Assembly (NCBI RefSeq): GCF_002355635.1 | Contig: NZ_AP017558.1 | Coordinates: forward strand, 248,001-312,000 | Length of the DNA: 64,000 bases | Direction: 5' to 3' | Source of the DNA: Halopenitus persicus | GTDB taxonomy: Archaea; Halobacteriota; Halobacteria; Halobacteriales; Haloferacaceae | Part shown: positions 10,071 to 59,477 of the stretch, in pieces | Layout of the letters: each line of letters starts with the position of its first letter | Numbering within the stretch: the stretch's first letter is position 1 | Position numbers and translations under genes: made by a program | The notes under the pieces: generated by a model | Seen by the model: only the letters and a program-made list of their open reading frames with translations | Told to the model about the DNA's origin: nothing | Database searches by the model: none

Positions 10071-10358
10071 TGTGGGTTTCGACTCGGAAAACGCGCATAA
10101 GGCTTGTCATCTACGCTCTCGAACCTAATTTTCGGCGCATGATTGATCGACCCCCAGATTCCGTATACTCGTCCGGATCAGTACTCATTCCGGCAAAATT
10201 CGTTGTAACGATCGCCTCTGTTAGTCATCTGATGTGTGGGAGTCGAAACTTTGATGTCAAAATCGGATATCATCTTAGCGACATCACTCATTGATTCGAT
10301 GCAGGCACAATATGTTCGAACGATACAAATATGTAGAATCTCCTTGATAGTCCGTTGG

Positions 10359-32997: not shown

Positions 32998-34356
32998 ATG
33001 GGTCTGTTCGACAAGCTTCGCGGCGGCTCCGACGATCGCGTCGTCTTCCTCGGGATCGACGGGGTCCCCTACGAGTTGATCGACGATCACCCGGACGTCT
33101 TCGAGAACCTCCACGCCATCGCCGAGGAGGGCGCGTCGGGGCAGATCGAGAGCATCGTCCCGCCGGAGTCGAGCGCGTGCTGGCCGAGCCTCACCACCGG
33201 CCAGAACCCCGGGAATACCGGGGTGTACGGTTTCCAGGACCGCGAGCGGGGCTCCTACGACACCTACGTTCCGATGGGGAGCCACGTCGAGGCGACCCGG
33301 CTGTGGGACCTCGCGACCGAGGACGGCCTGGACGCGACCGTCCTGAACGTGCCCGTGACGTTCCCGCCCTCGAGCCGGATCCAGCGGCAGGTCTCGGGCT
33401 TCCTCTCGCCGTCGATCGAGAAGGCCGCGAGCGACGACGAGGTCCGCCGGACGCTCGAGCGGTACGACTACGCGATCGACGCCGACGCGAAGCTCGGCCA
33501 CGACGACGACAAGACCGCCTTCATCGAGAACGCCCACGACACCCTCGAGGGGCGGCGGAGGGTCTTCGAACACTACGTCGACGAGGACGACTGGGACCTC
33601 TTCTTCGGGGTCTTCATGACGCCCGACCGGGTCAACCACTTCCTGTTCGGCGACTACGCGACCGACGGCGAGTACGCCGCGGCGTTCCTGGAGTTCTACC
33701 GCGAGCTCGACGCCGCGATCGGCGCGATCCGCGACCGACTCGACGACGACACCGAGCTCGTGGTCGCCTCCGACCACGGCTTCACCCGCGAGGAGTACGA
33801 GGTGGACATCAACCGATGGCTCGAGGCGGAAGGCTGGCTCTCGTACGCGGCGGACGCCGACGATCCGGACGGGCTCGCGGACATCGCGGACGACGCGCGC
33901 GCCTACTCGCTCATCCCCGGCCGGCTGTTCCTCAACCTCGAGGGGCGCGAGCCCCGCGGCAGCGTCGCCGAGGCCGACTACGAGGACGTCCGCGAGGAGC
34001 TGATCGCCGACCTCGAGTCCCTGGAGGGCCCCGACGGCCGGCCCGTCTGCGACCGGATCGTGACGGGCGAGGACGCCTTCTCGGGCGACCACACCGAGAT
34101 CGCGCCCGACCTCGTGGTCGTCCCCGCGGACGGGTTCGATTTAAAAGCCGGCTTCGGGAGCGACACGGACGTCTTCAGCACGGGCCCCCGAAACGGGATG
34201 CACAAGTTCGGCAACGCCAGCCTGTTCACGACCGACGCGGACGTGACGGTCGGCGACGACGTGAACCTCTTCGACGTCGCCCCGACCATCCTCGACCAGC
34301 TCGACGTCGACGCCGACCGCTCGGCCTTCGACGGCGAGTCGCTGCGCGCGGACTGA
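32998..34356 (+). CDS. Alkaline-phosphatase-superfamily phosphodiesterase-like protein
   Basis: The 452-residue protein shows VVFLGIDGVPYELID (metal Asp), the nucleophile region PPESSACWPSLTTGQNPGNT with Ser as likely nucleophile, and VASDHGFT for the metal ligands. It is a paralogue of the protein at 25663, but it lacks the LGY tail and ends in ESLRAD. The PP-loop gene is divergent and 181 bases away. A truncated sugar phosphotransferase follows directly. It is cytosolic by sequence. The substrate is probably a phosphodiester or nucleotide-linked sugar. Confidence 0.83.
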   Translation: MGLFDKLRGGSDDRVVFLGIDGVPYELIDDHPDVFENLHAIAEEGASGQIESIVPPESSACWPSLTTGQNPGNTGVYGFQDRERGSYDTYVPMGSHVEATRLWDLATEDGLDATVLNVPVTFPPSSRIQRQVSGFLSPSIEKAASDDEVRRTLERYDYAIDADAKLGHDDDKTAFIENAHDTLEGRRRVFEHYVDEDDWDLFFGVFMTPDRVNHFLFGDYATDGEYAAAFLEFYRELDAAIGAIRDRLDDDTELVVASDHGFTREEYEVDINRWLEAEGWLSYAADADDPDGLADIADDARAYSLIPGRLFLNLEGREPRGSVAEADYEDVREELIADLESLEGPDGRPVCDRIVTGEDAFSGDHTEIAPDLVVVPADGFDLKAGFGSDTDVFSTGPRNGMHKFGNASLFTTDADVTVGDDVNLFDVAPTILDQLDVDADRSAFDGESLRAD

Positions 34357-34373
34357 CCGGCGACCGGCAGCGA

Positions 34374-34913
34374 GTGGTGGCGCGGGTGGTGGGGTTGCTG
34401 CCGGTGATTGCGGCCATCGTGGTGGCCATTAAGCTGGATGACGGCGGATCGATTCTTTATAAGCAAGAACGGACTGCCGTGTTCGGGGAGACGTTCGAGG
34501 TGTCTGAGTTTCGAACGATGGTGCCCGAGGGCGAATCCGCGGAGCCCGTCGACGATGAGGAGAACGACCGGATCACGGACGTCGGGCGGTTCCTTCGGCG
34601 GACGCACCTCGACGAGATCCCGCAGCTCTGGTCGATCCTCGTCGGCGATATGAGCGTGGTCGGGCCGCGGGCGGTCTGGACCGAGGAGGAGTCGCTGTTG
34701 GAGGCACAGGCTCGGTCGTGGCAGCAGCGCTGGTTCGTGAAGCCCGGCTTGACGGGACTGGCACAGGTGAACGACGTGATGAGCACCGATCCGCGCGAGA
34801 AGTTGCGGTACGACCTGCAGTACGTGCGGAAGCAGTCGTTCGAGTACGATATGAAGCTGATTATGCGGCAGATCTGGAAGGTCGGTTGGGATGTCGTGGC
34901 GACGGTTCGATGA
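34374..34913 (+). CDS. Sugar phosphotransferase (WcaJ/ExoY family), N-terminally truncated
   Basis: The 179 residues match the catalytic domain of initiating polyprenyl-phosphate sugar-phosphate transferases: AIKLDDGGSILYKQERT, FRTMVPEGES, THLDEIPQLWSILVGDMSV, VGPR and KPGLTGLAQVN. Full haloarchaeal members are usually much longer, with four N-terminal membrane helices; even short bacterial forms start with a basic KRxFD segment before the helix. Here only GTG codons at 34374 and 34377 are available, 17 bases after the upstream stop. The protein lacks the basic start, so it is probably a remnant, though the remaining core could still fold. Confidence 0.7.
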   Translation: MVARVVGLLPVIAAIVVAIKLDDGGSILYKQERTAVFGETFEVSEFRTMVPEGESAEPVDDEENDRITDVGRFLRRTHLDEIPQLWSILVGDMSVVGPRAVWTEEESLLEAQARSWQQRWFVKPGLTGLAQVNDVMSTDPREKLRYDLQYVRKQSFEYDMKLIMRQIWKVGWDVVATVR

Positions 34914-43935: not shown

Positions 43936-44455
43936 CAGCTGCACGACACTGCTGATCACGCCGCGATAGACGCGACGTTCTTCGACCGGATCACAAGATA
44001 GCTGCCCATCAACAATGTGTGAGACAAGAGCGAATGCGTTAATGACTGCTAGTCAGAGGTATCCGAGATCGCGTAGTTGTGCTTCAATCACCTTATCGTC
44101 AACGTCTTCTGTTTCAATAGGGCGATCGGACGTGATGGTCCGACGGGTCTGATAGGGGAGGATGAGCCACGGTACTATTCTCACCTTCGGGAGCCAACAG
44201 CCTGCCGGATGGAAATATGTCCTAAAAAAAGGACATATGCTATTTTCACCAAACAATTCTCCATGATCCGCGCTTACTACTGATTTTCCGTCAACTTGAT
44301 CAAGCAACCGCTCAACCGAATCAAGGCAAATACATAAATTCTCCTCATAAGCTGTTTTTACTTTTGAATTGCTTATGAGATTTTGTTGGGCTGCTTTGAG
44401 CAATGTACTATAGTAATCGTTAGAACTTTCCGCTCAAAGATTGTTACTATACTCA

Positions 44456-44980
44456 ATGGATCATCTCGACGAGATCTCCGTCGAAGAACTCCAAGACGCC
44501 CTCAACAATGTTGACGGAAACAAGCCGACTCAACGGTTGTTAGCTGCGATCGCGTACAAGGACGGTGTCACGCAGACCGAACTTGCAGAGTGGCATGACA
44601 CCGGGCGAAGAACGATCTACAGCTGGTTGATGCGACTTGATACGGACGAACCGCTTGAGCAAGCTGTGTCTGATGCTCATCGATCTGGGAGAAAACGAAA
44701 GCTCTCAGAATCACAGCAAAAAGAGTTCGAACGAACTGTTCACGAACCGCCCGAGGAAGTTGGGATCGACGCGCCGGCGTGGACGCCGGCGCTCGTTCAG
44801 GAATTTCTCGAAGAAACCTACGGCGTCGAGTACTCTTCTCCGAGTTGTCGGCGGTTGCTGAAAGAAGCTGGACTCAGCTATCAAAAACCTCGACGTACAG
44901 CCGCTGAATCTGAGGAATCCGACCAAGAGGAGTTCCACGACGAGATCAAAAAAAGCGAGCGGAGATGGACGCCACAGTAG
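44456..44980 (+). CDS. IS630-family transposase, N-terminal (helix-turn-helix) frame
   Basis: This frame encodes about 174 residues with winged helix-turn-helix features: GVTQTELAEWHDTGRRTIYS and PEEVGIDAPAWTPALVQEF, the usual start of IS630 transposases. It ends shortly after a run of seven A at 44950-44956 (ATC AAA AAA AGC). A minus-one shift there would join it to the DDE frame as KKKRAEMDATVV. The start is the ATG at 44456; the frame is open a few codons further upstream. Confidence 0.85.
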   Translation: MDHLDEISVEELQDALNNVDGNKPTQRLLAAIAYKDGVTQTELAEWHDTGRRTIYSWLMRLDTDEPLEQAVSDAHRSGRKRKLSESQQKEFERTVHEPPEEVGIDAPAWTPALVQEFLEETYGVEYSSPSCRRLLKEAGLSYQKPRRTAAESEESDQEEFHDEIKKSERRWTPQ

Positions 44981-45456
44981 TCTGTATCGATCAGACGAAA
45001 AAATCTGTCCAGGTTGAGCCGCGTGCCGCGTGGTTTCCGCGCGGCACGCGGCCGAGCGTCGAACTCTCTGGCCAACGTGACTGGACGTGTCTACTCGGCG
45101 CAGTCACGGAAAACGGTGACTGCTTTTTCTCACGGTTCACCGAGTACGTCACCGCCGAGCACGCAAAACATTTCATTCTCGCGTTATGCAAAGAATTTGA
45201 AGAAGACTTGATCGTTGTGCTAGACGGAGCGCCGTACTTCCAGGCGTCGGCCGTCACGGATCTGGCGGCCCGTGACGACCTTGCCTTCGTCACGTTGCCT
45301 GCGTATTCGCCGGAACTCAATCCTGTCGAAGAGTGCTGGCGACAACTCCAGGATGCTCTGAGCAACCGATTCTTTGACTCGCTCGATGAACTCACGACGG
45401 CGATCGATACTGCTCTTGATCAACTGTCGCTTCCAAACGTGAGCAATTATTTCTAA
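44965..45456 (+). CDS. IS630-family transposase, catalytic (DDE) frame
   Basis: This frame encodes the RNase H-like domain: VVCIDQTKKSVQ (first Asp), LIVVLDGAPYFQ (second Asp) and YSPELNPVEECW (Glu), the IS630 DDE signature. It overlaps the upstream frame by 16 bases and is probably made as a fusion by ribosomal frameshifting at the A7 run. All catalytic residues are intact, so the element may still be active. Confidence 0.9.
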   Translation: MDATVVCIDQTKKSVQVEPRAAWFPRGTRPSVELSGQRDWTCLLGAVTENGDCFFSRFTEYVTAEHAKHFILALCKEFEEDLIVVLDGAPYFQASAVTDLAARDDLAFVTLPAYSPELNPVEECWRQLQDALSNRFFDSLDELTTAIDTALDQLSLPNVSNYF

Positions 45457-46310
45457 TGTTTACTATAATTGTAGTGCTAGTCTCTGATGTTGATTGGTTA
45501 TACATCATTTTAATTGTTCTAAATTTAACACCGTGCTGTTCCCGAACCTCGTTCCTAAGTTTTGCAGCTAAGTCGCCAATATACGGTACGTGAGGCTGCA
45601 TATAATGAACGATTAATCTTTTATTCGGATAATCCTCGTGTGCTTTGAGCGCAACATCAGTCACACGGTTAGGCATACGTCCTTCCATTCTCTTCTCATA
45701 TGTATCATATGTTTTGATTATTTTGTAGAACGTCCCATCATCAATATCATTTGAATATACATTCGATGATACGTAGACTGTATCGTGAAACTCCCTCCCT
45801 GCGAAGTTGGATCTCATCCATTCCTCACTTTGAGACCCTTGAGAGACGACCTGTTGAAGATCTCCCTCAAACTGATTATATTCTGAAAATGTATCATATC
45901 TGCAAGCGTCTAAAATAACAAGTGTGTCCCAGTCTTCTTCCATAACCTCAATAGGATCACCAAATTGTTCGATAAGCGCATTCCGATAACGTTTCTTGAA
46001 ATAATAGTTGCGAAAATTATCAGATATATAATTGACTTCTCTGGCAAATATTGACGGGTCTTTCAATCCTTTCACTAATTTTTTAATTGAATATCGTTCT
46101 GGTATGACCATAGTGGCTAGTTAGGCGGTAGGACAAAAAATATCTTATTTTACGCTTTTATGATACAGGTCGTGGTAACGACCTAGTAGTCTGGACTAAC
46201 TCAATAGATTTCCCCATTCAACAGATCTCAGCCTTAATTTGGAGTATCACATTGCGGAATGCTATTACAGCAAGACGTGCGATAACTTTTCACCAAAATG
46301 GTGCGCCTAG

Positions 46311-47540
46311 CTACCGATCAAGAGCAGGAATTTGGACCAGTGCGAACCCGAAGGTGAGAGCGGGAATAACCGAAAACAAGGACAATCCGAACATCGCTAG
46401 CCCCTCGAATAGCATCTCGATAAGAACCATCGTCAGAATTGCGAACAGTGCTGTGCTGCGAACATCACGCAGGCCAGTGAGACAGTTCTGGTAAACTAGG
46501 GCTAAGAATCCGAAATGAACGATCCCGCCAACGACACCGCGAGTCAGAATGACATATAAGTATGTGCTGTGGATATTATTTGTCGTTTCTCCAGCTGGGA
46601 GGTATGGGGCAACCGTATTCCCGACCGGCTGAAAGCCGATGCCGAAAATTGGGTTTGCCCAAATGGCTTTCAGCGCTGCCGTCCACAATCTGATTCGGGC
46701 TGGAATGAGGTTGGGAATATCAATGTAATCCGGCAAATAGCCAAGTCCTATGGCAATTAGGTAGATGAAACCAAGGAACCCGGCCGTAATAAGTGTGTAC
46801 ACTCCCCAATAGTCAAAATAGTTATATAATAACACCAATCCAGCACCGATGGCGGTGGTTATGAGTGCACCCCGACTTGCACTAAAAATTACACCACCAA
46901 TCAAGATCGTAAGCAAAAGCAAATCAGTTGCCTGACGACGACGGTAGTAGAACGATAAACCAGAGACAAACCCAAGTCCCGAAACAAATCCGAACGGATT
47001 GGGATTTGACAGAACCGATTTCACCGGCATAACCCGCACGTTGAGTAACGGGAGTTGTTTCGACACATCGTGAGGCGCTACGACGACGCCTACGAGGTGG
47101 TACTCACCCAAGAACAACGTCGGTAGTCCGAGAAGTGTTAGGATAACTGGAAACAGATACAGAACATACAGAAACTCGTCTAGGTCTATAGTCTGCGGGG
47201 CGATAAAAAGGAGAATAAATGAAGTCGCCAATAAAATTGGAATGCGACCCAACGTCCAGATGCTGAGTGGTGGGATTAGAGCGTGAAAGAGGTAGATCAT
47301 CCAGAGGACTGCGTAGGCAACGAGCGCGTATCTGGGAATCCCGATAGAATCTGATTCCAGAACAGCGGCAGCACCAAATAGAAAGACAAGAGGAACAACT
47401 GTGATGACGTGGAAGACGGAGTTCGCCCCGGTCATATCTATCGTGCTTGAGATGATAACCAGCACGAACAGTGTAGTTGTCACTGAGAGTCGACGAACAG
47501 TAGTTTCTTTTGTGTGGATGGTTTTTGCCGTTTCGCTCAT
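46311..47540 (-). CDS. O-antigen-ligase/polymerase family membrane protein (Wzy-like)
   Basis: This 409-residue polytopic membrane protein has about 11-12 helices. The periplasmic-side signature NPIFGIGFQPVGN with NNIHSTYLYVILTRGVVGG is typical of Wzy/O-antigen ligase proteins (Wzy_C). These enzymes polymerise or ligate lipid-linked glycans outside the membrane. The first 18 residues are cytosolic. It lies between the disrupted sulfatase-like gene and a GT4 gene. It suggests that the island makes a repeating-unit polysaccharide and not only a short N-glycan. Confidence 0.85.
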   Translation of the reverse strand: MSETAKTIHTKETTVRRLSVTTTLFVLVIISSTIDMTGANSVFHVITVVPLVFLFGAAAVLESDSIGIPRYALVAYAVLWMIYLFHALIPPLSIWTLGRIPILLATSFILLFIAPQTIDLDEFLYVLYLFPVILTLLGLPTLFLGEYHLVGVVVAPHDVSKQLPLLNVRVMPVKSVLSNPNPFGFVSGLGFVSGLSFYYRRRQATDLLLLTILIGGVIFSASRGALITTAIGAGLVLLYNYFDYWGVYTLITAGFLGFIYLIAIGLGYLPDYIDIPNLIPARIRLWTAALKAIWANPIFGIGFQPVGNTVAPYLPAGETTNNIHSTYLYVILTRGVVGGIVHFGFLALVYQNCLTGLRDVRSTALFAILTMVLIEMLFEGLAMFGLSLFSVIPALTFGFALVQIPALDR

Positions 47541-47907: not shown

Positions 47908-49053
47908 TTATAGTTTGAAATTCTCTGGTACGAGACCAGCATATACTTCTATGATCTGATCTGCAAGATGTTCCCAGTCGAAGCGCTCGGATCGAGCGAG
48001 ATCAAATCCAGCAGAGGCCAGGCGCTGTCGTTCCGTAGGTTGGTCGACAAGTGTATCCAGACTGTCTGCGAGATCCTGCGGTGTTGGTTGCCGCACGATA
48101 GTAGCTGTCTTACCATCGGTCACATACTCGGTGAAACAAGGCAGATCCGAGACAACAGCTACGTTCTCAAATGCAAGTGCGAGTTGGAGCGCACCGCTTG
48201 TCGTCCCTTCACGATATGGGAGTGCAACGATGTCAGCAAAGTAGAAATACATCCACAACTCGGCGTCTGGAATATATTTGAAATGTGTATTAACGTTCTC
48301 TGTGGTTCGTGCTCTCTGGGCATATGACTCGTCACCGTCATTAATAGGACCGACAATCCAAGGATCAAACCTTGTCTCTGTACATTCTAAAGCGTCTAGA
48401 AACGTTGCAATACCCTTGTGTTCTTTGACACCGAAAAACAGGATTACTGGATTCTCTGTTTCACCGTACGGCGACGGGGCCTTTTCTTCTATGTATCGTC
48501 GAAAACAAAGGTAGTTTCCATGGGGGATCACCGATATCGGCGTCCTGATACCGTCTTCAACCAGCTCTTGTCGTAATGCTTCTGTGTGTGTGACAAGATG
48601 GTTAACTAACTGGAAGTGCCTGTTCGCAATTGTCCTCGCAAGTGGACTGACATTACCTAGGCGACTGTCAGTTCGTTCATGAACCGTACGAACAACTGGT
48701 ATGCGAAGAATCGTAAGAAGGATCGTGATATAGAGAGTGTACCACTGTGTCCGAATATGTGTGTTTATTTGTACGACATCAGGTCGGACACGGAGAAAGT
48801 ACAGCAGTAATTGAATCTGCAACAGCAATGTCCGCACAACCATTACGACTTTGCTGTCGTTACCTGTATATACGAAGTGGGATTCTGTGACGTACTCGGG
48901 GAAATGTGACTCATCGTCCGACCCAGCATAGAATATGTCAATTGTCATTTCTGGGTTCGACTTATAGAGGCCACGAAGTTGGTTCAGTGCGTAGTGGTAA
49001 TGACCAGCGTTCGTTCCGTAGGTGAAATAACACAGCCGCGGACCCTCTGACAT
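47908..49053 (-). CDS. GT4-family glycosyltransferase
   Basis: This 381-residue GT-B protein starts LCYFTYGTNAGHYHYALNQL. A hydrophobic stretch around residues 70-115 (LLLQIQLLLYFLRVRPDVVQ) is typical of membrane-associated GT4 enzymes. The C-terminal half has VILFFGVKEHKGIATFLDAL and ALPYREGTTSGALQLALAF, where the second Glu of E-x7-E is replaced. It is low in GC like its neighbours. Acceptor and donor are unknown. Confidence 0.86.
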   Translation of the reverse strand: MSEGPRLCYFTYGTNAGHYHYALNQLRGLYKSNPEMTIDIFYAGSDDESHFPEYVTESHFVYTGNDSKVVMVVRTLLLQIQLLLYFLRVRPDVVQINTHIRTQWYTLYITILLTILRIPVVRTVHERTDSRLGNVSPLARTIANRHFQLVNHLVTHTEALRQELVEDGIRTPISVIPHGNYLCFRRYIEEKAPSPYGETENPVILFFGVKEHKGIATFLDALECTETRFDPWIVGPINDGDESYAQRARTTENVNTHFKYIPDAELWMYFYFADIVALPYREGTTSGALQLALAFENVAVVSDLPCFTEYVTDGKTATIVRQPTPQDLADSLDTLVDQPTERQRLASAGFDLARSERFDWEHLADQIIEVYAGLVPENFKL

Positions 49054-49221
49054 ATGTGATGTAATTTCTTGTGTGGAAAAGAATAATAACTTTGCTCTGA
49101 TCGTGGCCGTCGCGCTAAGTCAGGAGTGAAGCGGTCGTTGGCTCGGGTGCCCTATACGAATTTGACTACCTCCAAAGTGAGATTGTATAGATATATTTGG
49201 GATTGGTGGAGCGGCAGAATT

Positions 49222-50148
49222 TTAGTTTCTAAGTGCTTTTACCGCTGTACCTTTTAGAATGCCAGCCACTATACCAGTACATGGATAAACAACGCATCGT
49301 ATATCTCTGTAATATATTGATTTCCCTATGCTGTATAATATACGATAAATGAGAGTTGGGAGAGCGAGATGGAAGAAAAACCTAGTATGTATATACATTG
49401 AATTTCTGTGCCGATAGTATTCGAATTTCGTACATCCACTACCATTAATATCTCCCTTTTGTTTTGAAAAACGGCCGCTTGATCCACCATCCGTTGCTGA
49501 TAAATGATAAATAACGGATTGAGGATGAAAATATATACGATGGCCCTCATCTCTTGCTCTAAACGAAAAGCTAAGTGATTCTCCCCAACCATCTCCTAAT
49601 AAATTATTATCATACAGTGGAATATTTTCTAGTATGTCTTTTAATACGAATAATCCTGATTCGCGGACGAATGGAATATATCTCGATTTAGACACTTGTT
49701 CAAGATTATTAATAAAATCGTAATTCCAGAAATATTTTATCGCGATATTTGGTTCGGAACCATCTGAAATTGAAGATTTATTTTTGGAAGTTTCAATGAC
49801 TTTTGACTGAATTATGTATTCACCATTATTTAATGAAGTAACAATTGGATTAATAAAATCATCATCCACTCTCATATCATCCTCCAAGAAACCAACCACT
49901 TTTCCAGATGACTTATCAACGCCAATTCTTTTTGCTTCCATTTGTCCATTACCGCCCCCTTGTATATATTCAGCAAAACTATTGGAAACTACTTCTCTGG
50001 TGTTATCGGTGGATCCATCATCAATAACAAGTACTTCTACCTCAGTAGTGTACGGTTTTATAGAATTTAAAAATTCTTCTAGATGACTATCCCTATTGTA
50101 TGTAGGTATTACTAATGAAATGTCTGATTTCCCGAAAGTCTCAGTCAC
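49222..50148 (-). CDS. GT2-family glycosyltransferase
   Basis: The GT-A protein of 308 residues has ISLVIPTYNRDSHLEEFLNS, VLVIDDGSTDNTREVV, the DxD-type GFLEDDMRVDDDF and an acceptor motif near GWGESLSFSFRARDEG. The C-terminal 60 residues are hydrophobic/aromatic and may touch the membrane. It has very low GC and Lys/Asn-rich codon use, clearly unlike the core genes, so it was probably acquired from a lower-GC haloarchaeon (Haloquadratum-like composition). Confidence 0.87.
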   Translation of the reverse strand: MTETFGKSDISLVIPTYNRDSHLEEFLNSIKPYTTEVEVLVIDDGSTDNTREVVSNSFAEYIQGGGNGQMEAKRIGVDKSSGKVVGFLEDDMRVDDDFINPIVTSLNNGEYIIQSKVIETSKNKSSISDGSEPNIAIKYFWNYDFINNLEQVSKSRYIPFVRESGLFVLKDILENIPLYDNNLLGDGWGESLSFSFRARDEGHRIYFHPQSVIYHLSATDGGSSGRFSKQKGDINGSGCTKFEYYRHRNSMYIHTRFFFHLALPTLIYRILYSIGKSIYYRDIRCVVYPCTGIVAGILKGTAVKALRN

Positions 50149-50199
50149 AATTATAAGTGTTTGACTACTATCTAAAATAACTTCCTATTTAGAAGAACT

Positions 50200-50933
50200 A
50201 TCGCGTTTAGTTTGTAGCGGTGTGCCAGACGGCGGCGGTGTGTTCTAATGTTTCAGCTGCACGTTGGTGGACGGCTAAAACAGTTTGAGATGAAGTGGGT
50301 CGTTTTGTATTACGGAAGATGCGTTCGACGTTAATGTTATTTATATCATATTCGAACAAAAATCGAGGCCGTGTCGCCGGAGCGCGGTTTATAGCCAATT
50401 CGCATCATCAACGAGAAACAGCGCAGTACCAAGACGCGATGCATCTTGTGCGCCCGCCAAAATGCAGCTGCGTTCTGCGGACGTCGTCGACATCGTGTTT
50501 CTCACGAAGCTCTCGAAGGAAGATCTCAGTCAATGCAGTCGTATACGTGGAAAAGAGCCGAATATGAAGGATTGGTTTGTTGCCGGATCGACGGCCGCGT
50601 AAAGCCAAACACTGCTGATCAGTGATCCGAATCACGCTCTCGTCAACCGCAACCTGATCTGGACTGATTCCTCCTTCGAGTCGAAGATCGGCTTTCTGTA
50701 CCCAAATGGACGGCTTTTCGGCTACGTGTGACAACCAGCCTCATCACGAATTAAACTGTATTCGAAAGTGAGAGACCAGCAACGTGGTGCTGCATACCGA
50801 GCTTCATCGCCCATCTAGTCCGCTTGCGCTCCACAACACCCAAATCGATCAGCCGCAACTATCGCTGAGGTGTGTGATTTCGAACATAGGGCACTCAGAA
50901 ATCATCACGCTTCACTTTTCACTTAATTAACAA
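50200..50933 (-). pseudogene. Decayed IS6-family transposase copy
   Basis: Read on the minus strand it begins GTTAATTAAGTGAAAAGTGA, then LIDLGVVERKRTRW, HHVAGLSLSNTV, fragments near DQVAVDESVIRITDQQ, KHDVDD and VHQRAAETLEHTAAVW. Stops and shifts break every frame. A 58-base hairpin insert splits the codons after KHDVDD (about 50446-50503). Its 5' end has the same hairpin with CCTATG in the loop as the other elements. It is not functional. Confidence 0.8.
50446..50503. repeat. 58-bp hairpin insert inside the decayed IS6 copy
   Basis: On the minus strand the insert starts TCCGCAGAACGCAGCTGC and contains CAAGATGC-ATC-GCGTCTTG. It resembles the 56-base insert at 43880-43935 in an unrelated transposase gene. 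Confidence 0.5.
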
Positions 50934-51063
50934 CCAGCTAAACTCAGTCAATTACAAGGCGAAAGAACAATATCGGTCAACAATCTACGCTGTAAGAGCA
51001 ATTAGCACTCAGCTACGTCTGGTAGTTCACACGATCCTTTTCAGTAACCCTTCTACTAATATG

Positions 51064-51993
51064 TTAGATAGATTCTAGTTCGTCTAGATCTACTCTTGGG
51101 TGTACTTCTAAGTTTCCTCCAACGGTAGAATTATATATGTGTTTTCCTTTCTCTTCAAGTATCCTTTTGGCCAAAATATGGGTTATGATCATTTGCTTAT
51201 TTACGTGAGATAGTTCACCTCTTGGCATAATCTGATAACTTGACCCAAAATGATTAGAATCAGTATTTACGAAATATCCGGTATTATTTTCTATTTTTGT
51301 AGCTAACTTGCTATGTAAAACCTTATACAATAATAAGTTGATCACTGATTTCGCTAAGACACGATTAGTTGCACTAGAAGTTACAAATTTCCAACCATTA
51401 AATAGGGTGTGTCGAGGAGTCGCATAATGAGCAGGATCTAAGCCGTCATCAAACATCATATATGGTTTATGATCACTATAACCCAGATCAGTTCCAAGAA
51501 GATACATCTTACTAAAACCTAAATAATTGGCAATTTGAATTGCAGGATACATTGAATGCCAGAGATAGACTTGGTTAGAGATGTCGTCTGACCAAAAATT
51601 CAGCAATTCTTCAACATCGATTTTCTTAACATCTTCAATAGAAAGATCTTCAACAATTTTTCCACTGATGCGTGTTTCCGTTGGCTCAACCCAATCTAAT
51701 CGGAATAATTTATCATTGGATTGTATATTATATGAATTACGTGATAGAGTAAAACAAAGTGTACCAATATCTAGATGCTTGGTTATCAATTCTGTACCCA
51801 GCTCTGGTACATTGAAATTCAGATAAATTGAAGGTCTCCAAGATGTTTGACTATATATTTTAGATATTCTGTTCATAGCTATTGAATGTTCACCTTCAAT
51901 TCGGTGCAGTGGTGTTTTATCCAGACTAGGTCCGTTTCCTATGAGAAAAACCCGTTCACCCTCATACTTTCCATTTAGTGACTCCAAATCCAT
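51064..51993 (-). CDS. GNGPSL-motif protein (DUF115/MptE-like or GT42-like transferase)
   Basis: This 309-residue protein begins near GERVFLIGNGPSLDKTPL. The GNGPS loop is shared by DUF115 (annotated MptE-like) proteins and by GT42 bacterial sialyltransferases such as Cst-II, which use CMP-sugars. A later YLGFSKMYLLGTDLGY is similar to the LGYKEIYLSGIDF part of Cst-II. Neighbouring genes make CMP-Kdo, so a CMP-Kdo transferase is an attractive reading, but homology by eye cannot decide between the two families. It is low in GC and monocistronic, with about 620 bases to the pyruvyl transferase gene. Confidence 0.65.
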   Translation of the reverse strand: MDLESLNGKYEGERVFLIGNGPSLDKTPLHRIEGEHSIAMNRISKIYSQTSWRPSIYLNFNVPELGTELITKHLDIGTLCFTLSRNSYNIQSNDKLFRLDWVEPTETRISGKIVEDLSIEDVKKIDVEELLNFWSDDISNQVYLWHSMYPAIQIANYLGFSKMYLLGTDLGYSDHKPYMMFDDGLDPAHYATPRHTLFNGWKFVTSSATNRVLAKSVINLLLYKVLHSKLATKIENNTGYFVNTDSNHFGSSYQIMPRGELSHVNKQMIITHILAKRILEEKGKHIYNSTVGGNLEVHPRVDLDELESI

Positions 51994-52614
51994 CTCGTAG
52001 GATTACCATATCTTAAGAAATAAAAACATAATGATTCCTTATGTACATACGCTTATCTCGATAGATCGTAATATATATGACAGTAGTTCAAGCGTTAGTC
52101 AAGATCGATGAAATAAGCACGATTTTCTACGGTACAAGTGCTGCTTCAAGCATCTTAGCTTTTCCTATTTTGATGTGTTGAAACACTCTAAACAATCTCT
52201 CGCTGTTTCGCCATATGTACGTCTATGAACCGCCCAGGAACCAATGACCGTTGTGAACGTGACTCGTGTGCGAGTTACTCTGACGCGCTACCGATGCCCC
52301 ATCTTCGTTCGGTGAAATCCAGATCGAACAGCAGTACGGTCGGACTAGAAACGAAAGGCTAGCTGCTAGACATCTGGCATCCTCGATCACTTCGATCGCT
52401 AGAATGGCGCAAGCAAAACTGCTGTTGAATGGTTTGACGAGGAATTTCGAGAGTTCCTGAAGCAAAGATCCGAAAATCCAAGCAGACATAAATCCGCCTA
52501 AGCCGCCGCTGAACTCTCCGGTGGCGCAGATGCTGACTCGAATTTGCTGCCAGGTGGCTTTTCCATATATTTATGAAGATTAAGATAATTCTGTTATGAT
52601 CCTCTGTTCACAAT
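51994..52614. other. Gene-free stretch within the Kdo locus
   Basis: There is no intact gene. The part at about 52220-52530 is higher in GC than its surroundings and its best reading frames are short and interrupted, suggesting decayed mobile DNA. I could not name the source. Confidence 0.5.
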
Positions 52615-53892
52615 CTATACAATATTTGCATTTTTTGATGCCAATGATCTCATATTTTCTATTGGGATTTCATTATAGAATCCCCTCCTAATGCCATTCT
52701 CTACTGAATCGAGAATAGCATTCGTATTGGTACCAATATCATTTTCCGAATAGATTGGGTGGTTTGATCCAATGTGTTCTCTTAAGGCTTCGATTTTGAA
52801 TGTATTTCCACTAAAATTAACAAGTTGTGATTTCCCTAATAATGCGAAGATACTTTCATGCCATCGCCCCCCAATATACACTTCTGAGTGGCCAAGGATG
52901 GATGCAGTTAAGTGGTGATTATTATTCGTTTTCAACAAACACGTCTCTGTATTCTCAGCAACATTTAACAGAAATGTTTCATCAGCACTTGATGCAGCTG
53001 TAAGCAGAATATTCATATCCGGAAATCGAGTTTTCATTTCGTTAACCAGTAATGCAAATTTTTTCGATTTCACATCAATAGATTGTTGAAGACCAGATCC
53101 GCCACCGACGCAGATATACGGTTTGGTGAAGTCAAATTTTGGATTTTTCTTATTGGGGTGCCAAAGTGATATAATATTCATATCGTTAAAATTATTAATA
53201 TTTTTGCTTTGGATATCGTTATCCATTAACCAAGCCGCGTCAGCTGCTTGGGTACCATTTTTATGTTTGGACTGACTCTCATACTCTGTCATTGAGACTG
53301 GATCACGGAAAATAATTGAATTCATTAATGGATAAACTAAATTGACTATTGATCGAAAGCGATCCGTGTTGATTTCTAGTGTGTGGTTTATTATATGGGT
53401 CTTCATTCCTAACTTTTTTTTGGCAACATATGCCAAAAATAGTAATGACCAGGATCCATTACTATATTTGGTGACCCCACTATCATGAATACTTCCTTCC
53501 CCATTAATAATAATATGATCTATGTTTTCTGTGTTACCAAAATAATCATTTACAAGACCACTTTCTACAAATTTTTCAGCTCGATGTTCAAATTGGCTGG
53601 CAGTTTTTGGAAGTAGTTCAAATAGGTGATGGCCATTCCTACTAGAATTATATAGTTTACGAATTATTCCATTTTCTTCAGATATCGAATTGATAGATTC
53701 GCCTACGATATATCTAATATCATATTGACTAGGCAGTATGAACTCCCTATTAGTTATGTTTATTTCGTTTAAGAAAACAGTATTTACTATGTCTACTCTA
53801 TCATTTAATATTGCACGAAGTTCACTACTCGTCGCATAACACCCCCAATTACCACCATCTGACGTGTCTGAAATAAAGAGTGCATTGGTCAT
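52615..53892 (-). CDS. Polysaccharide pyruvyl transferase family protein
   Basis: This 425-residue GT-B-like protein has the family pattern NALFISDTSDGGNWGCYATS, IINGEGSIHD, FRDPVSMTEYESQ and YIGGRWHESIFALL. Such enzymes (WcaK, CsaB, Pvg1) put a pyruvyl ketal from phosphoenolpyruvate onto sugars, giving the glycan negative charge. It overlaps the KdsD stop by 4 bases and so belongs to the Kdo operon. Very low GC. The GRWHE motif near the C-terminus is well preserved. Confidence 0.85.
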   Translation of the reverse strand: MTNALFISDTSDGGNWGCYATSSELRAILNDRVDIVNTVFLNEINITNREFILPSQYDIRYIVGESINSISEENGIIRKLYNSSRNGHHLFELLPKTASQFEHRAEKFVESGLVNDYFGNTENIDHIIINGEGSIHDSGVTKYSNGSWSLLFLAYVAKKKLGMKTHIINHTLEINTDRFRSIVNLVYPLMNSIIFRDPVSMTEYESQSKHKNGTQAADAAWLMDNDIQSKNINNFNDMNIISLWHPNKKNPKFDFTKPYICVGGGSGLQQSIDVKSKKFALLVNEMKTRFPDMNILLTAASSADETFLLNVAENTETCLLKTNNNHHLTASILGHSEVYIGGRWHESIFALLGKSQLVNFSGNTFKIEALREHIGSNHPIYSENDIGTNTNAILDSVENGIRRGFYNEIPIENMRSLASKNANIV

Positions 53893-54881
53893 TGTGTTAA
53901 TCCCTCCTCCATAATGTCGTGTATATGCAAGACACCTACTAATCTATCATCATCATCTGTCACAACAAGTTGCGTGATGCTATACTCTTCAATCGTTTCA
54001 AGTGCGCGTATCGCAAGTGTCTCAGGCGATGTTGTAACTGGACTAGTAGTCATCACATCTTCAGCCGTAATATTATGAAGATCTGTTCCAGACTCAATTA
54101 AGCGACGTATATCTCCATCAGTTATTATACCTTCTACGTGACTTTCATCATCTTGAACGACAGCTATACCTTTCCCACCTTCACTCACTTTGACAGCAAC
54201 TTGGGCTAATGTATCCGAAGGATGTGTTTCTGGCATTTCTTTGTACAGCAGATCTTCTACAGTAAGCAGGAGGCGCTTTCCGATGGGTCCTCCAGGGTGA
54301 AAATGGCCGTAATCTTGTTTCCCGAAATCCCGGCTTGCCATCAACGCGTTAGCGATACCGTCTCCGATAGCCATTGTGGCGGTCGCGCTAGCCATCGGAA
54401 CTAGATCGACGACAGCACCTTCCTCTTCCACTTTCGTATTAATATGATAGTCCGTTTGCTGTCCTAATTTCGAGCTTGGATCAGACGTTATTGCGACTGT
54501 TGTCGCATCAAAGGAACCGAGGAATTGAAGCAACTCAACCATCTCATCAGTGTTACCGCTGTTTGAAATGAGAACGACGATGTCGTTATCCGCTAGCGCA
54601 CCTAAATCCCCGTGGAGAGCCTCGACAGGATGAATAGTATGTGAAGAGATTCCTATGCTATTAAACGTCGATGAAATCTTTTGTCCCACGTCTCCAGATT
54701 TACCAATTCCAGTGAAAATAACTCGACCGTCTTCCTCGTCAATCACATTCGCCACTTGCGCGATCGCATCAACAGTCTGACTATTATGTAGTGCTTCGAG
54801 TGAATCCTTTTGGATCGATAAAGTACGAAGGACTGCATCGCTAACGGCGGGTTGGTCTCTCTTTGTCTGCTCACTAGTCAT
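53889..54881 (-). CDS. kdsD: D-arabinose-5-phosphate isomerase KdsD (KpsF/GutQ family)
   Basis: KdsD turns ribulose-5-phosphate into arabinose-5-phosphate, the precursor of Kdo. The 330-residue protein has an SIS domain (VIFTGIGKSGDVGQKISSTF, PVEALHGDLGAL, VVLISNSGNTDEMVEL) and two C-terminal CBS domains (about 210-325, for example GIITDGDIRRLIESGTDLHN). The linker contains the family HPGGPIGKRLL. Length and domain order match E. coli KdsD. It overlaps kdsA by 8 bases and the pyruvyl transferase gene by 4. Confidence 0.93.
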   Translation of the reverse strand: MTSEQTKRDQPAVSDAVLRTLSIQKDSLEALHNSQTVDAIAQVANVIDEEDGRVIFTGIGKSGDVGQKISSTFNSIGISSHTIHPVEALHGDLGALADNDIVVLISNSGNTDEMVELLQFLGSFDATTVAITSDPSSKLGQQTDYHINTKVEEEGAVVDLVPMASATATMAIGDGIANALMASRDFGKQDYGHFHPGGPIGKRLLLTVEDLLYKEMPETHPSDTLAQVAVKVSEGGKGIAVVQDDESHVEGIITDGDIRRLIESGTDLHNITAEDVMTTSPVTTSPETLAIRALETIEEYSITQLVVTDDDDRLVGVLHIHDIMEEGLTQ

Positions 54882-55689
54882 ACTTCACCGTTTCGTCGAT
54901 AGCCTTCCACTGCTCAAGATGCGACTCAAACTCATCAAGGGGTAGTTGTGTCTTTGCATCGCATTTGGCCGATGGTGGATCTGGATGCACCTCTGCGAAA
55001 ATGCCTGCCACACCAGCCCCAAGTGCGGCCCGAGCCAGTGTTGGCGCAAAACGGCGGTCCCCACCGCTTGAGTCACCACGCGCCCCAGGCCGTTGAACGG
55101 AATGCGTCGTGTCGAACACAACCGGCTTGCCGAGTTCTTTCATAATATCGAGGTTTCGCATATCGACGACGAGGTTGTTGTATCCGAACATCGCGCCGCG
55201 TTCGCAGAGCATAATCTGTTCGTTTCCCATCGATTCGATTTTATCTACAACGTTGTCCATCCCTTCCGCTGAGAGGAACTGACCTTTTTTGACGTTTATT
55301 GGGAGTCCTGTTTCTCCAGCTGCGGTGAGCATATCAGTTTGCCGTGAGAGGAATGCAGGAACTTGCAGAATGTCAACAATTTCTGAAACTGGGTCGGCCT
55401 GTTCAGGTATGTGGAAGTCGGTTATGACTGGAAGGTCGTACTCGTCCTTGACGCGCTGAAGGATTTCAAGACCTTGTTTCATCCCTGGACCACGATATGA
55501 ACTGATCGACGAGCGATTTGCTTTGTCGAACGAACTTTTGAAGATCAAATCGATATCGTAGCGCTCAGTAATAGATGTCAATTCTCGTGCTGTCTTCAGG
55601 ACTTGTTCCTCTGATTCGATCACACACGGTCCTGCGATCAAAAAAAATGGGTCCTCGTTGGAGGCCGAAATTTTGTTACTGAGTTCCAT
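54874..55689 (-). CDS. kdsA: 3-deoxy-D-manno-octulosonate-8-phosphate synthase KdsA
   Basis: KdsA condenses phosphoenolpyruvate with arabinose-5-phosphate to give Kdo-8-phosphate. The 271-residue TIM barrel has FLIAGPCVIESEEQ, FKSSFDKANRSSISSYRGPG, VKKGQFLSAEGM, CERGAMFGYNNLVVDMR and HPDPPSAKCDAKTQLPL. The Cys of AGPCVIE and the Asp after AKC are metal ligands, so this is the metal-dependent class II form (as in Aquifex) and not the E. coli type. It overlaps the fusion gene by 14 bases and kdsD by 8. Confidence 0.95.
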   Translation of the reverse strand: MELSNKISASNEDPFFLIAGPCVIESEEQVLKTARELTSITERYDIDLIFKSSFDKANRSSISSYRGPGMKQGLEILQRVKDEYDLPVITDFHIPEQADPVSEIVDILQVPAFLSRQTDMLTAAGETGLPINVKKGQFLSAEGMDNVVDKIESMGNEQIMLCERGAMFGYNNLVVDMRNLDIMKELGKPVVFDTTHSVQRPGARGDSSGGDRRFAPTLARAALGAGVAGIFAEVHPDPPSAKCDAKTQLPLDEFESHLEQWKAIDETVKYD

Positions 55690-56869
55690 CGTTACGTTCT
55701 TGCTGTATCTTTTTTTCTACGACGGGTATATCACTTTCCACGTTGACCTCTTTGGAATCGTAGTTAGTCTGGACTGTTTGTATTTCGTAGCCGTTTTCGA
55801 GCAGACGGAGTTGTTCTAAGTCTTCAGCTGATTCTAGATCTGACTGCATATCGATGTAATCGAGTAACAGCTTCGTCTCAAACCCATACAATCCAATATG
55901 CTTGTACGTTGTCCCCACTTTTCCTCCAGATGGAATTTTTGACCGCGAGAAATACAACGCTTTGCCGTCGGTATCAGTTACTACTTTGACGGTGTTTTCA
56001 TTATCAAGAAGTGATTTATCCTCGATTGCAGAAATCGGTGTTGCGACTTTTGGAGCGTTTTTTCGAAGCGCTTGTACGATAGCGTCAATGACATTCGGAT
56101 CGATAAGTGGCTCATCGCCCTGAATGTTGATCGTATAGTCCGAACCGACTTTTGCTGCGACTTCTGCGACTCGATCTGTTCCCGTCGGCTGATCAGACTC
56201 CGTCATCATTGCGGCACCACCGATGGATTCGACAGCCTCAACGATTCGCTCATCGTCTGTGGCGACAATGAGATCATCAAGTAACGTTGCGTTGCTTGCA
56301 CGCTCGTATACATGCTGGATCATCGGTTTTCCAGCGATCTCGGCTAATGGTTTACCCGGAAGTCTCGTTGATCCGTATCGAGCCGGAATAACGCCAAGCA
56401 CCGTTTGAGAAGCCGTGTCCAAGTGGGTTAAAATATCTCGAACAGCCCCTTCTCCCCCGTTATACTGGCTAATGTACGTACATTTATTTTTGACATCCTG
56501 AATCGCGTTTGCTGGACAACAAGCTATGCCGACAGTTTCCATCGCTTCTACATCTGTCAGATCGTCCCCGATGTACACTGTGTCCGCCAGATCGAATCCG
56601 AGACGGGATGTAATTTCTTTGGCTTTCCGTTTTTTATCTTGCACACCTTGATGTACTTCTCGCACACCAAGCTCTGAAGCACGTTTCTTAACGGCTTCTG
56701 ACTCCCTAGATGTAACGATTACGAAGTCACAACCGTCCTTTTTTTTCCACTGTACGATCCCATATCCGTCTTTCACATCAAAAGATTTGAATACTTCTCC
56801 ATCTTGGTTGATGTTTATTTTTGAGTCTGTGAGAACTCCATCAACATCTGAAAAAACTAAGTGACCCAT
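55676..56869 (-). CDS. Fusion of Kdo-8-phosphate phosphatase (KdsC) and CMP-Kdo synthetase (KdsB)
   Basis: The first 150 of 397 residues are a HAD phosphatase of KdsC type: LVFSDVDGVLTDSKI (nucleophile Asp in SDVDG), VIVTSRES and YIGDDLTDVEAMETVG. Residues about 157-397 are a CMP-Kdo synthetase: VLGVIPARYGSTRLPGKPLA, NIQGDEPLIDP, YFSRSKIPSGG and HIGLYGFE. One protein would thus dephosphorylate Kdo-8-P and then load it onto CMP. KdsC and KdsB are normally separate proteins. It is the first gene of the operon, with the ATG at 56869. Confidence 0.93.
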   Translation of the reverse strand: MGHLVFSDVDGVLTDSKININQDGEVFKSFDVKDGYGIVQWKKKDGCDFVIVTSRESEAVKKRASELGVREVHQGVQDKKRKAKEITSRLGFDLADTVYIGDDLTDVEAMETVGIACCPANAIQDVKNKCTYISQYNGGEGAVRDILTHLDTASQTVLGVIPARYGSTRLPGKPLAEIAGKPMIQHVYERASNATLLDDLIVATDDERIVEAVESIGGAAMMTESDQPTGTDRVAEVAAKVGSDYTINIQGDEPLIDPNVIDAIVQALRKNAPKVATPISAIEDKSLLDNENTVKVVTDTDGKALYFSRSKIPSGGKVGTTYKHIGLYGFETKLLLDYIDMQSDLESAEDLEQLRLLENGYEIQTVQTNYDSKEVNVESDIPVVEKKIQQERNDGTQ

Positions 56870-57062
56870 TCTACCTTCTAACCTACGTAAACTATAGAAG
56901 ATACCTAAGTTTTAGGATGCCGATTGAAACAGCATACTTTTCACTCAGATATGAGCCGCAATACATCACCGATATATGCGAACTAAAGTATACGATCGGG
57001 ACAGCTTCGTTTCATATGTCGTCATATTGATCATTCACTCAAATACTATGTAGATATTATGC

Positions 57063-58868
57063 CTATCCACTTGACTGGATCCCATACAACTCTGCATATT
57101 TTCCGTCGTTATCAACCAGCTCCCGGTGCTCACCGACTTCCGTAATTCGTCCCCGTTCAACTGTATAGATCCGGTCGGCGTTCTTCACTGTCGACAGTCG
57201 ATGAGCGATCGTGACGATTGCGTAATCACGATCCATCTCCTCGATCGCGCGCTGGACCTTTTTCTCTAAGTTCGAGTCGAGGTCACTGGTCGCTTCGTCG
57301 AGAATTAACACGTCGGCATCCTCCAACAGGGCACGAGCGAGTGCAACGCGCTGCTGTTGTCCGCCGGATAGTCGAACCCCGTCGTCACCCAGTAACGAAT
57401 CATATCCCTTCGGCAGCTCATCGATAAACTCGTCAACTTTCGCGATTTTACACACTTGGTCGAGTTCGCTTTCAGAGACATCTCGATTTTCGAGCGTCAG
57501 GTTGTACCGAAGCGTATCATTGAAGATGAACGGGTCCTGTCTGACCATCGAGAGTCGGTCGCGCCACTCGGCAATGTCCATCTCGTCGATCGGGATCCCG
57601 TTTGCTCTGATCTCACCTCTATCGACTGGATACAACCGAGCCAGAAGCGACACGATGGTCGACTTCCCCGCGCCGGATTGTCCGACGAACCCGACGAACT
57701 CACCTTTCTCGACGGTGAAATCGATCCCGCGGAGGACCTGCTCCTCGTCGTCATATGAGAAGTGGACGTCGTCGAATTCAATTTCGTGAATTTTGTCCGG
57801 AACATCACGAGTCGATTCGGTGGGCTCCTCATACGTCGCGAGTTCGTCAGTGAATTGGATAGTCCGAACGAGGTGTGGGAGGTTGTTTTCTACCTTGTAG
57901 TACAGCGTGTTCACTTGGCTTGCCTTCGGGCCAAGTCGGAACATCGCGAAGAGGAACACGCCGAGTTCGCCGACCGAGAGGTTCGCGAACGTCAACGCGA
58001 GGAAGATCAGCACGAACACCGAGACGGCGACGACGAGATTGTAGAAGTTGTTGATCGCGGCCTCGTTCCGTCGGAGAACAATTCGAGATATGGTGAACTG
58101 TTCAATTGCGTCGGTGAAATCTTCGAACAGTTCTTCGGCGAGCCCGAAAACCCGCACGTCACGAATTCCTTGCGTGCCAGCCTGTGCTGCTTCTTGACGG
58201 AGCTCATTCGCCTCTGCGACCTGTTCGCCGACGTCGTACCCCGAGTCAAGAATGCGACGGAAAAACAGGGAAAATCCACCGAGGACGACTCCAGTAGCAA
58301 TCGTCAGTATCGGAGCGATCATCAACGCGACGATGAAGTATACACCGGTGAGAAAGGATTGTTGAGTGAAGTTAATCCCCTGGCTGATTACTGCTCCCGC
58401 GTAATTCGTCTGGGTGACGATCGCATTCAAAATATCATCGGAACCCTCCTCATCGAAGTACTCTACCCGCGCGTTCAATGCATTCCGGAACGCACGCGTC
58501 TGAAGGTCCCGGATATAGTAGGTTCGTAATGCCTCGCGAAACCATGCAACCGCAAAGCTGGTCGTGTACCGTGCGACCATCACCAGCGACACGCCGAGTA
58601 CGACGTATCCCAGCGTGAATGGAATTCCGAGTGCTTGGTAAGCCGTGACGAACACCGCCAACAGTCCCTCCGCCTCCGCGGCGGGATCCTGAAGCTGTAC
58701 GAGTTCAACGATCGGGAGAATGAAACTCAGACCGACTCCTTCGAGCACCGCTGCGGCAACGCCGAGGACGACGACCATCGTCGTGTACTTCGGATCGTAC
58801 GTCGCGACATCGCGGAGGGCATTGAGTTTCGCTCGTCTGGAGACCGGTTCGGGATCTGACGATGACAT
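57063..58868 (-). CDS. ABC exporter (MsbA/PglK-like half transporter)
   Basis: This 601-residue protein has six membrane helices (about 25-320) followed by an ATPase domain: Walker A GQSGAGKST, Q-loop VRQDPFIFND, signature LSGGQQQR, Walker B VLILDEATSDLD and the H-switch AHRLST. It would work as a homodimer. Relatives flip lipid A (MsbA) or lipid-linked oligosaccharides (PglK). Its position beside the Kdo operon suggests export of a Kdo-containing lipid-linked glycan. GC is higher than in the Kdo genes, and the start region abuts the cut nucleotidyltransferase. Confidence 0.92.
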   Translation of the reverse strand: MSSSDPEPVSRRAKLNALRDVATYDPKYTTMVVVLGVAAAVLEGVGLSFILPIVELVQLQDPAAEAEGLLAVFVTAYQALGIPFTLGYVVLGVSLVMVARYTTSFAVAWFREALRTYYIRDLQTRAFRNALNARVEYFDEEGSDDILNAIVTQTNYAGAVISQGINFTQQSFLTGVYFIVALMIAPILTIATGVVLGGFSLFFRRILDSGYDVGEQVAEANELRQEAAQAGTQGIRDVRVFGLAEELFEDFTDAIEQFTISRIVLRRNEAAINNFYNLVVAVSVFVLIFLALTFANLSVGELGVFLFAMFRLGPKASQVNTLYYKVENNLPHLVRTIQFTDELATYEEPTESTRDVPDKIHEIEFDDVHFSYDDEEQVLRGIDFTVEKGEFVGFVGQSGAGKSTIVSLLARLYPVDRGEIRANGIPIDEMDIAEWRDRLSMVRQDPFIFNDTLRYNLTLENRDVSESELDQVCKIAKVDEFIDELPKGYDSLLGDDGVRLSGGQQQRVALARALLEDADVLILDEATSDLDSNLEKKVQRAIEEMDRDYAIVTIAHRLSTVKNADRIYTVERGRITEVGEHRELVDNDGKYAELYGIQSSG

Positions 58869-58980
58869 ATCGGTCGGTTATCCCGATTTTCCGGTCGGCC
58901 CGAATAATATCGTCGGTCTCGTCCCGTTGTTTTCCTCTGTAGAGATCGTACCGAAGAATCCTCGCGAACATCCTTCTTTA

Positions 58981-59377
58981 ATATCGCTTCCGCGAGGACG
59001 CCGTCGACCCCGGATCGCCCCAGCGCGTCGACGACCGGCCGAAGCGACTCCGCGAAGACGTTGTCCCCGTTCACGACCAGAAACGACCCCGAAACGTGGG
59101 GCGCCGCCTGCAGCACCGCGTGCGCGAGCCCGCGCCGCTCGCGCTGGTGGACGTACGTGATCGGCGTGCCCTCGTATACGTCGCCGAACCGGTCGACGAT
59201 CCGCGTCCCCTCGTACCCGATCACGACGACCAGCTCGTCGGCGCCCGCCCCGATCGCCCGATCGACCACGTGCGCGAGCAGGGGCCGGCCGGCGACCGCG
59301 ACCAGGCCCGTCGGTCGATCCGCGGTCAGCGCCCCGAGACGCGACCCACGCCCGGCCGCGGGAACCACGACCTGCAT
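58981..59377 (-). pseudogene. Sugar nucleotidyltransferase, 3'-truncated at the island edge
   Basis: The first 132 residues are a normal high-GC nucleotidyltransferase (QVVVPAAGRGSRLGALTADR, LVVVIGYEG, FLVVNGDNVFAES). After GVLAEAI the frame changes to ABC-transporter upstream DNA and the rest of the protein is missing. Full relatives have about 240 or more residues. The break at about 58980 coincides with the GC change, so it marks the right boundary of the acquired island. Confidence 0.8.
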
Positions 59378-59477
59378 ACTCCCCGGTCGGGGCGCCAGCC
59401 CCGAGTAGCCATCGGCCGACCGCGACCGCGGTCACCCCCATCTGCTCCCCCTCGATCGGGGTCGAAACCCCATCTCG

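Follow-up and report, generated by a model that had tools for sequence, protein, structure and literature searches.

A 64,000-nt stretch of the genome of the haloarchaeon Halopenitus persicus (contig NZ_AP017558.1, positions 248,001 to 312,000; here called the window, to which all coordinates below refer) contains a kds operon predicted to make the cytidine monophosphate (CMP)-activated form of 3-deoxy-D-manno-octulosonic acid (Kdo), the usual marker of Gram-negative lipopolysaccharides and capsules and of plant pectin. Judging from sequence, this is quite likely a working CMP-Kdo operon, acquired from bacteria and exchanged among haloarchaea, which would feed a surface glycan via a transferase of family PF01973. 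What is new is not the enzymes, which are already known, but their host, the order of the fusion, the lack of lipid A, and the candidate transferases. An earlier reading of the sequence alone had considered that Kdo or a close ulosonate in an archaeal surface glycan would be novel, and no report of archaeal Kdo was found in the literature searched, most subscription journals lying outside that search.

The kds operon

The sequence-only reading described four overlapping genes at 52615-56869, and they were found exactly as claimed, all on the minus strand and with overlaps (in the order kdsCB/kdsA/kdsD/fourth gene) of 14, 8, and 4 bases:

55676-56869, minus strand: KdsC-KdsB fusion (397 aa), with an N-terminal HAD phosphatase (Kdo-8-phosphate phosphatase) and a C-terminal CMP-Kdo synthetase
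54874-55689, minus strand: KdsA, Kdo-8-phosphate synthase of the metal-dependent type (271 aa), from profiles, PDB match, and motifs
53889-54881, minus strand: KdsD/KpsF arabinose-5-phosphate isomerase (330 aa), with SIS and two CBS domains
52615-53892, minus strand: PF04230 polysaccharide pyruvyl transferase-like protein, a putative glycan-modifying enzyme (425 aa)

Profile identity was judged by the curated cut-offs of NCBIfam and Pfam. KdsA passes both of its own, TIGR01362 (388 vs 314 bits) and PRK05198 (404 vs 242 bits). The KdsB half passes TIGR00466 (187 bits, NCBIfam cut-off 155) and is below the PRK05450.1-1 equivalog cut-off (206 vs 281 bits); the KdsC half passes subfamily TIGR01670 (135 vs 107 bits) and KdsD subfamily TIGR00393 (262 vs 204 bits), with Pfam domains PF01380 and PF00571. 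Matches in the PDB are to KdsB (E 1e-52), KdsA (E 3e-88), and, for KdsD, arabinose-5-phosphate isomerases (E 1e-27). Active-site motifs, which had been read as intact, were found in KdsCB, KdsA, and KdsD. The KdsC half has the HAD motifs DVDGVLTD, TSR, and GDDLTD, and the KdsB motifs are also there. KdsA has IAGPC (including the metal-ligand Cys, IAGPC22), KANRSS, THSVQ, FAEVHP, and KCDAKTQ. Metal-dependent KdsA enzymes are separated by having Cys, His, Glu, and Asp as metal ligands, instead of Asn (PMC3052366), and the metal-binding Cys together with the other ligand motifs places this one in the metal-dependent type (class II). Profiles, PDB matches, and motifs thus agree with the earlier assignment of a KdsC-KdsB fusion, a class II KdsA, and a KdsD with CBS domains.

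The proposed route is the bacterial one. KdsD would convert ribulose-5-phosphate to arabinose-5-phosphate, which KdsA would condense with phosphoenolpyruvate to give Kdo-8-phosphate. Dephosphorylation would then fall to the KdsC half of the fusion, and the KdsB half would couple Kdo to CMP. That the set covers every step from ribulose-5-phosphate to CMP-Kdo, also part of the earlier reading, is supported throughout by profiles, motifs, operon structure, and purifying selection. The genome (3.1 Mb, 99.5% complete, two contigs) showed no second known route to a CMP-ulosonate, since KdsB is its only PF02348 cytidylyltransferase (CMP-sugar synthetase) and a search for NeuB found none; NeuB-dependent synthesis of sialic or legionaminic acid was accordingly rejected here. 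Searches of the genome for WaaA (GT30, PF04413), LpxC, and a PF05159 beta-Kdo transferase also gave no match. With neither WaaA/GT30 nor LpxC found there would be no lipid A acceptor, and use of the sugar in lipopolysaccharide does not appear to fit this genome.

The fourth gene stands apart. The sequence-only reading called it a polysaccharide pyruvyl transferase; the family holds, at 35.2 bits against PF04230 (Pfam cut-off 25.3), while the functional label is weakly supported, the CsaB and WcaK profiles matching far under their cut-offs. Its profiles found no match in the PDB and no relative in viral contigs, and a profile comparison with another PF04230 protein of the same island was not significant. 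A homologue occupies the same place in one other kds genome, G007 (43% identity), and another is found near neuB/neuA-like genes in G360 (24%); both are beside a PF01973 gene. The protein is a distant PF04230 member outside the conserved kds core.

Distribution and transfer

The operon is not unique to this genome. Among 392 Halobacteria genomes from 86 genera, the kdsCB-kdsA-kdsD trio occurs in six, from five genera, always in the same order and with the genes overlapping or abutting (in G253, kdsCB is cut short by the end of the contig). KdsA of the other kds haloarchaea is 78-88% identical to that of the window, and the full-length KdsCB fusions in four of them are 64-81% identical. Ratios of nonsynonymous to synonymous substitution rates (dN/dS) are 0.04-0.06 for kdsA (three unsaturated comparisons) and 0.08-0.10 for kdsCB (comparisons with unsaturated dS); for kdsD, dS is saturated in all comparisons. 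Recurrence of the trio in six genomes, with dN/dS of 0.04-0.10 where dS is unsaturated, excludes chance, and the sequences establish what the pathway genes are, that they are intact and organised together, and that they are under purifying selection.

In the trees, haloarchaeal KdsA (support 98/92) and KdsB (98/99) each form their own clade, within which three families are intermixed, pointing to exchange among haloarchaea. Trees with bacterial and archaeal homologues had been proposed in the sequence-only reading; those built resolve the haloarchaeal clades, but with few bacterial rows and weak deep branches they do not name a bacterial donor. Unfused kds clusters occur in three other archaea of the phylum; their KdsA proteins are 47-57% identical and fall on different branches of the KdsA tree, so the archaeal kds genes probably have more than one origin. 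One of these non-haloarchaeal clusters (G470, L019:10341-11387) includes a phosphatase resembling KdsC that seems to be fused to CBS-like domains.

Two congeneric genomes in the sample lack KdsA. The GC content (guanine plus cytosine) falls from ~70% to 38-50% across roughly 38-58 kb of the window, and by gene is 45% for kdsCB, 50% for kdsA, 45% for kdsD, and 35% for the fourth gene, with flanks at ~70%. Horizontal transfer, suggested earlier from the low GC and the island setting, is supported by these features together with the patchy rarity of the operon across families and the mixing of three families in the KdsA tree.

A scan of genome contigs with a single KdsA query returned one locus, which is bacterial, and a megablast of window positions 49000-59400 against plasmids gave no match. 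KdsA and KdsB homologues lie close together on plasmids of Gram-positive bacteria (L088, Streptomyces; L090, Bacillus velezensis), another setting outside Gram-negative lipopolysaccharide.

Candidate transferases and the surrounding island

Just downstream of the operon, outside the coordinates of the sequence-only reading and overlooked by it, is one further gene of interest:

51064-51993, minus strand: candidate CMP-Kdo-dependent glycosyltransferase (PF01973 / Maf / GT42-like), from a weak profile match, predicted fold, and gene context

CMP-Kdo is a plausible donor for this protein because a bacterial Maf, a PF01973 enzyme, has been shown experimentally to transfer Kdo from CMP-Kdo (PMC11339370). 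The protein has a FLIGNGPS motif, its G007 homologue passes the PF01973 cut-off, and a homologue at L014:14369 scores 37.5 bits. A Foldseek search with its AlphaFold2 model (mean predicted local distance difference test score, pLDDT, of 71) gave MptE of M. jannaschii (8sd5, E 3e-4), Maf (5mu5, E 1e-3), and the sialyltransferase CstII (1ro8, E 4e-3), with nothing else near in score at high probability; identity to these structures is 15-17%. A profile of the family found no significant sequence match in the PDB, Maf (5mu5) coming second at E 1.5 via two motifs. Homologues occur in six of the 392 Halobacteria, all of them with a cytidylyltransferase gene within ~6 kb. In two genomes this is part of kds; two others have a pair of CMP-sugar synthetases and an HpcH/HpaI aldolase, and of the remaining two, one has a NeuB/NeuA-like pair and one a KdsB-like gene standing alone. 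Co-occurrence with kds is significant (Fisher p = 0.003).

PF05159-like proteins are encoded near kds in G145, G026, and G296; in each of them QxxxD precedes KxHP by 28-38 residues, the motifs that in retaining beta-Kdo transferases provide the nucleophile and bind CMP (PMC12887879). The G026 protein is under the Pfam cut-off, and a PF05159 protein in G253 has no QxxxD. The family is associated with kds (Fisher p = 0.005), but it is present in 27 of the 392 genomes and so is not by itself evidence for Kdo; as 24 of those 27 have no KdsA match, it was rejected as a Kdo-specific marker in haloarchaea.

Several points weigh against the proposed reading. The 51064-51993 protein is under the PF01973 cut-off (30.7 bits, E 3e-7, against 34.6), its model has weak stretches at residues 173-206 and 228-253, its fold scores are modest with a pterin pyrophosphokinase (HPPK/MptE) at the top, and four of the six kds haloarchaea have no PF01973 transferase. 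In the operon itself, strict equivalogs are missed by KdsC (PRK09484, 120 vs 208 bits) and KdsD (PRK10892, 260 vs 505 bits).

The first group of points could mean that CMP-Kdo is made but that the PF01973 protein is no transferase, being pterin pyrophosphokinase-like, for instance, or unrelated, and that an unrecognised glycosyltransferase of the island uses the CMP-Kdo instead. MptE does rank ahead of Maf and CstII, and other kds haloarchaea have PF05159-type proteins where the PF01973 protein is missing. This alternative is nevertheless on the unlikely side: all six PF01973 carriers have a cytidylyltransferase nearby, which in four belongs to a non-kds cluster, the genome has no detected PF05159, PF04413, or second cytidylyltransferase, and the combination of QxxxD and KxHP was found in no other protein of its island.

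The second group raises the question of whether the product is instead a CMP-activated relative of Kdo, either a 3-deoxy-ulosonate of other configuration or length or a Kdo modified later, so that the glycan would be Kdo-like without containing Kdo. Substrate diversity in this niche is seen in related haloarchaea, where KdsB-like or CMP-sugar synthetases adjoin a 2-hydroxyacid dehydrogenase (G217) or an HpcH/HpaI aldolase (G074, G112). KdsA, however, passes two Kdo-8-phosphate synthase equivalogs by wide margins and keeps KANRSS and its metal ligands, KdsD in the same operon ties the sugar to arabinose-5-phosphate, and the operon has no gene for oxidation or transamination, making a Kdo relative rather improbable. 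Passive carriage of silent or decaying transferred genes in the low-GC island, without a product, would fit the low GC, the rarity (6 of 392), the nearby transposases, and a gene broken by insertion, but the frames are all intact, the catalytic motifs are in place, dN/dS is 0.04-0.10 where dS is unsaturated, and five genera share the gene order, which makes it very improbable.

The PF01973 neighbourhoods just mentioned have features of their own. G074 (L030:4166-10788) and G112 (L032:5475-11214) share a cassette beside the transferase, comprising the two CMP-sugar synthetases, the aldolase, a Ldh2-type dehydrogenase, and an epimerase; KdsA was not found in either genome, and the cassette possibly makes an undescribed CMP-ulosonate via the pyruvate aldolase. 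In G217 (L031:9625-14126), where the genome gave no KdsA match, the transferase has as neighbours a KdsB-like synthetase that passes the PRK13368 cut-off, the 2-hydroxyacid dehydrogenase, an SDR, and a protein with a metallo-beta-lactamase fold.

Besides the PF01973 protein and the kds genes, the low-GC stretch in H. persicus encodes glycosyltransferases of the GT2 and GT4 families, a Wzy-like protein, an ABC transporter, and transposases. Genes of the window that may take part in assembling a glycan are:

57063-58868, minus strand: MsbA/PglK-like ABC transporter, a putative lipid-linked glycan flippase (NCBIfam MsbA and PglK matches)
49222-50148, minus strand: GT2 glycosyltransferase of the island (PF00535, 76 bits)
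46311-47540, minus strand: Wzy-like polymerase/ligase (PF04932, 44.9 bits vs cut-off 31.7)
6915-10106, minus strand: AglB oligosaccharyltransferase (PF02516, 82 bits, single match in the genome)

A copy of the transporter, 57-69% identical, adjoins kdsCB in G145 and G026. No STT3-family gene other than aglB was found in the genome; aglB is ~43 kb away from the operon here, and 3 kb from the kds genes in G007. Under the proposed reading of a working CMP-Kdo operon, the PF01973 protein would use CMP-Kdo to add Kdo to a lipid-linked glycan (or a protein) that the island glycosyltransferases assemble, the PF04230 protein might pyruvylate the glycan, the adjacent transporter would flip it, and AglB or the Wzy-like protein would put it on the surface. 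We infer CMP-Kdo as the product, and likewise the donor of the transferase, the linkage, the acceptor, and an AglB-linked or Wzy-dependent placement. There is perhaps an even chance that archaea genuinely build Kdo into their surface glycans, either N-glycans or exopolysaccharide, that stand-alone PF01973-type transferases form a new group of CMP-ulosonate glycosyltransferases, and that PF05159-type proteins replace them in relatives.

At 44053-46111, an IS630-like transposase (44441-45456) apparently splits a phosphatase/sulfatase-like gene of the island into 44053-44403 and 45392-46111. At 58727-59377, the match of a sugar nucleotidyltransferase to intact haloarchaeal copies stops after 117 residues, at the low-GC boundary, which is likely a recombination edge. 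Near the island, 33177-34913 encodes an initiating sugar transferase domain of bacterial type (PF02397, 168 bits), apparently without the usual N-terminal part.

If archaea do make CMP-Kdo, this would separate Kdo from lipid A and extend archaeal ulosonates beyond nine-carbon sugars. In environmental data, neither the sugar nor its kds genes could then be taken as purely bacterial or plant, and haloarchaea would be a source of salt-adapted Kdo enzymes and of candidate new Kdo transferases. With a complete gene set and a plausible attaching enzyme adjacent, the chemistry of the predicted pathway is open to direct test.

Comparison with known systems

The same four enzymes make up the bacterial Kdo pathway of lipopolysaccharides and capsules (kdsD-kdsA-kdsC-kdsB), and a plasmid of Burkholderia pyrrocinia likewise has them in one operon, as kdsA-kdsC-kdsB-kdsD. 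The lipopolysaccharide route differs from the present case in the archaeal host and in the WaaA/GT30 and LpxC that were not found here. The fusion of a Pseudomonas TMW plasmid has KdsB before KdsC, whereas KdsC comes first here, and with its domain order reversed it was rejected as the same fusion.

The 51064-51993 protein has a GNGPS motif and, as it appears, its domain family or fold in common with the Maf flagellin glycosyltransferases (PF01973) and the GT42 sialyltransferases. Compared with Maf, it is a stand-alone protein of ~300 aa without the Maf N- and C-terminal domains. The retaining beta-Kdo transferases GT99, GT107, and GT140 share QxxxD and KxHP with the PF05159-like proteins of G145, G026, and G296; the sequence similarity is weak, and it is the relatives, not H. 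persicus, in which these counterparts were found.

A comparable case within the haloarchaea is Halorubrum sp. PV6, where legionaminic acid is produced along a NeuB-type pathway whose genes are gathered near aglB (PMC6137143). There, too, a CMP-ulosonate cassette for N-glycans is near aglB (PMC6137143), but the sugar has nine carbons and is made by a NeuB-type synthase and a NeuA-type synthetase, and H. persicus has no detected NeuB. The PV6 pathway gives CMP-ulosonates a precedent in the glycans of haloarchaea.

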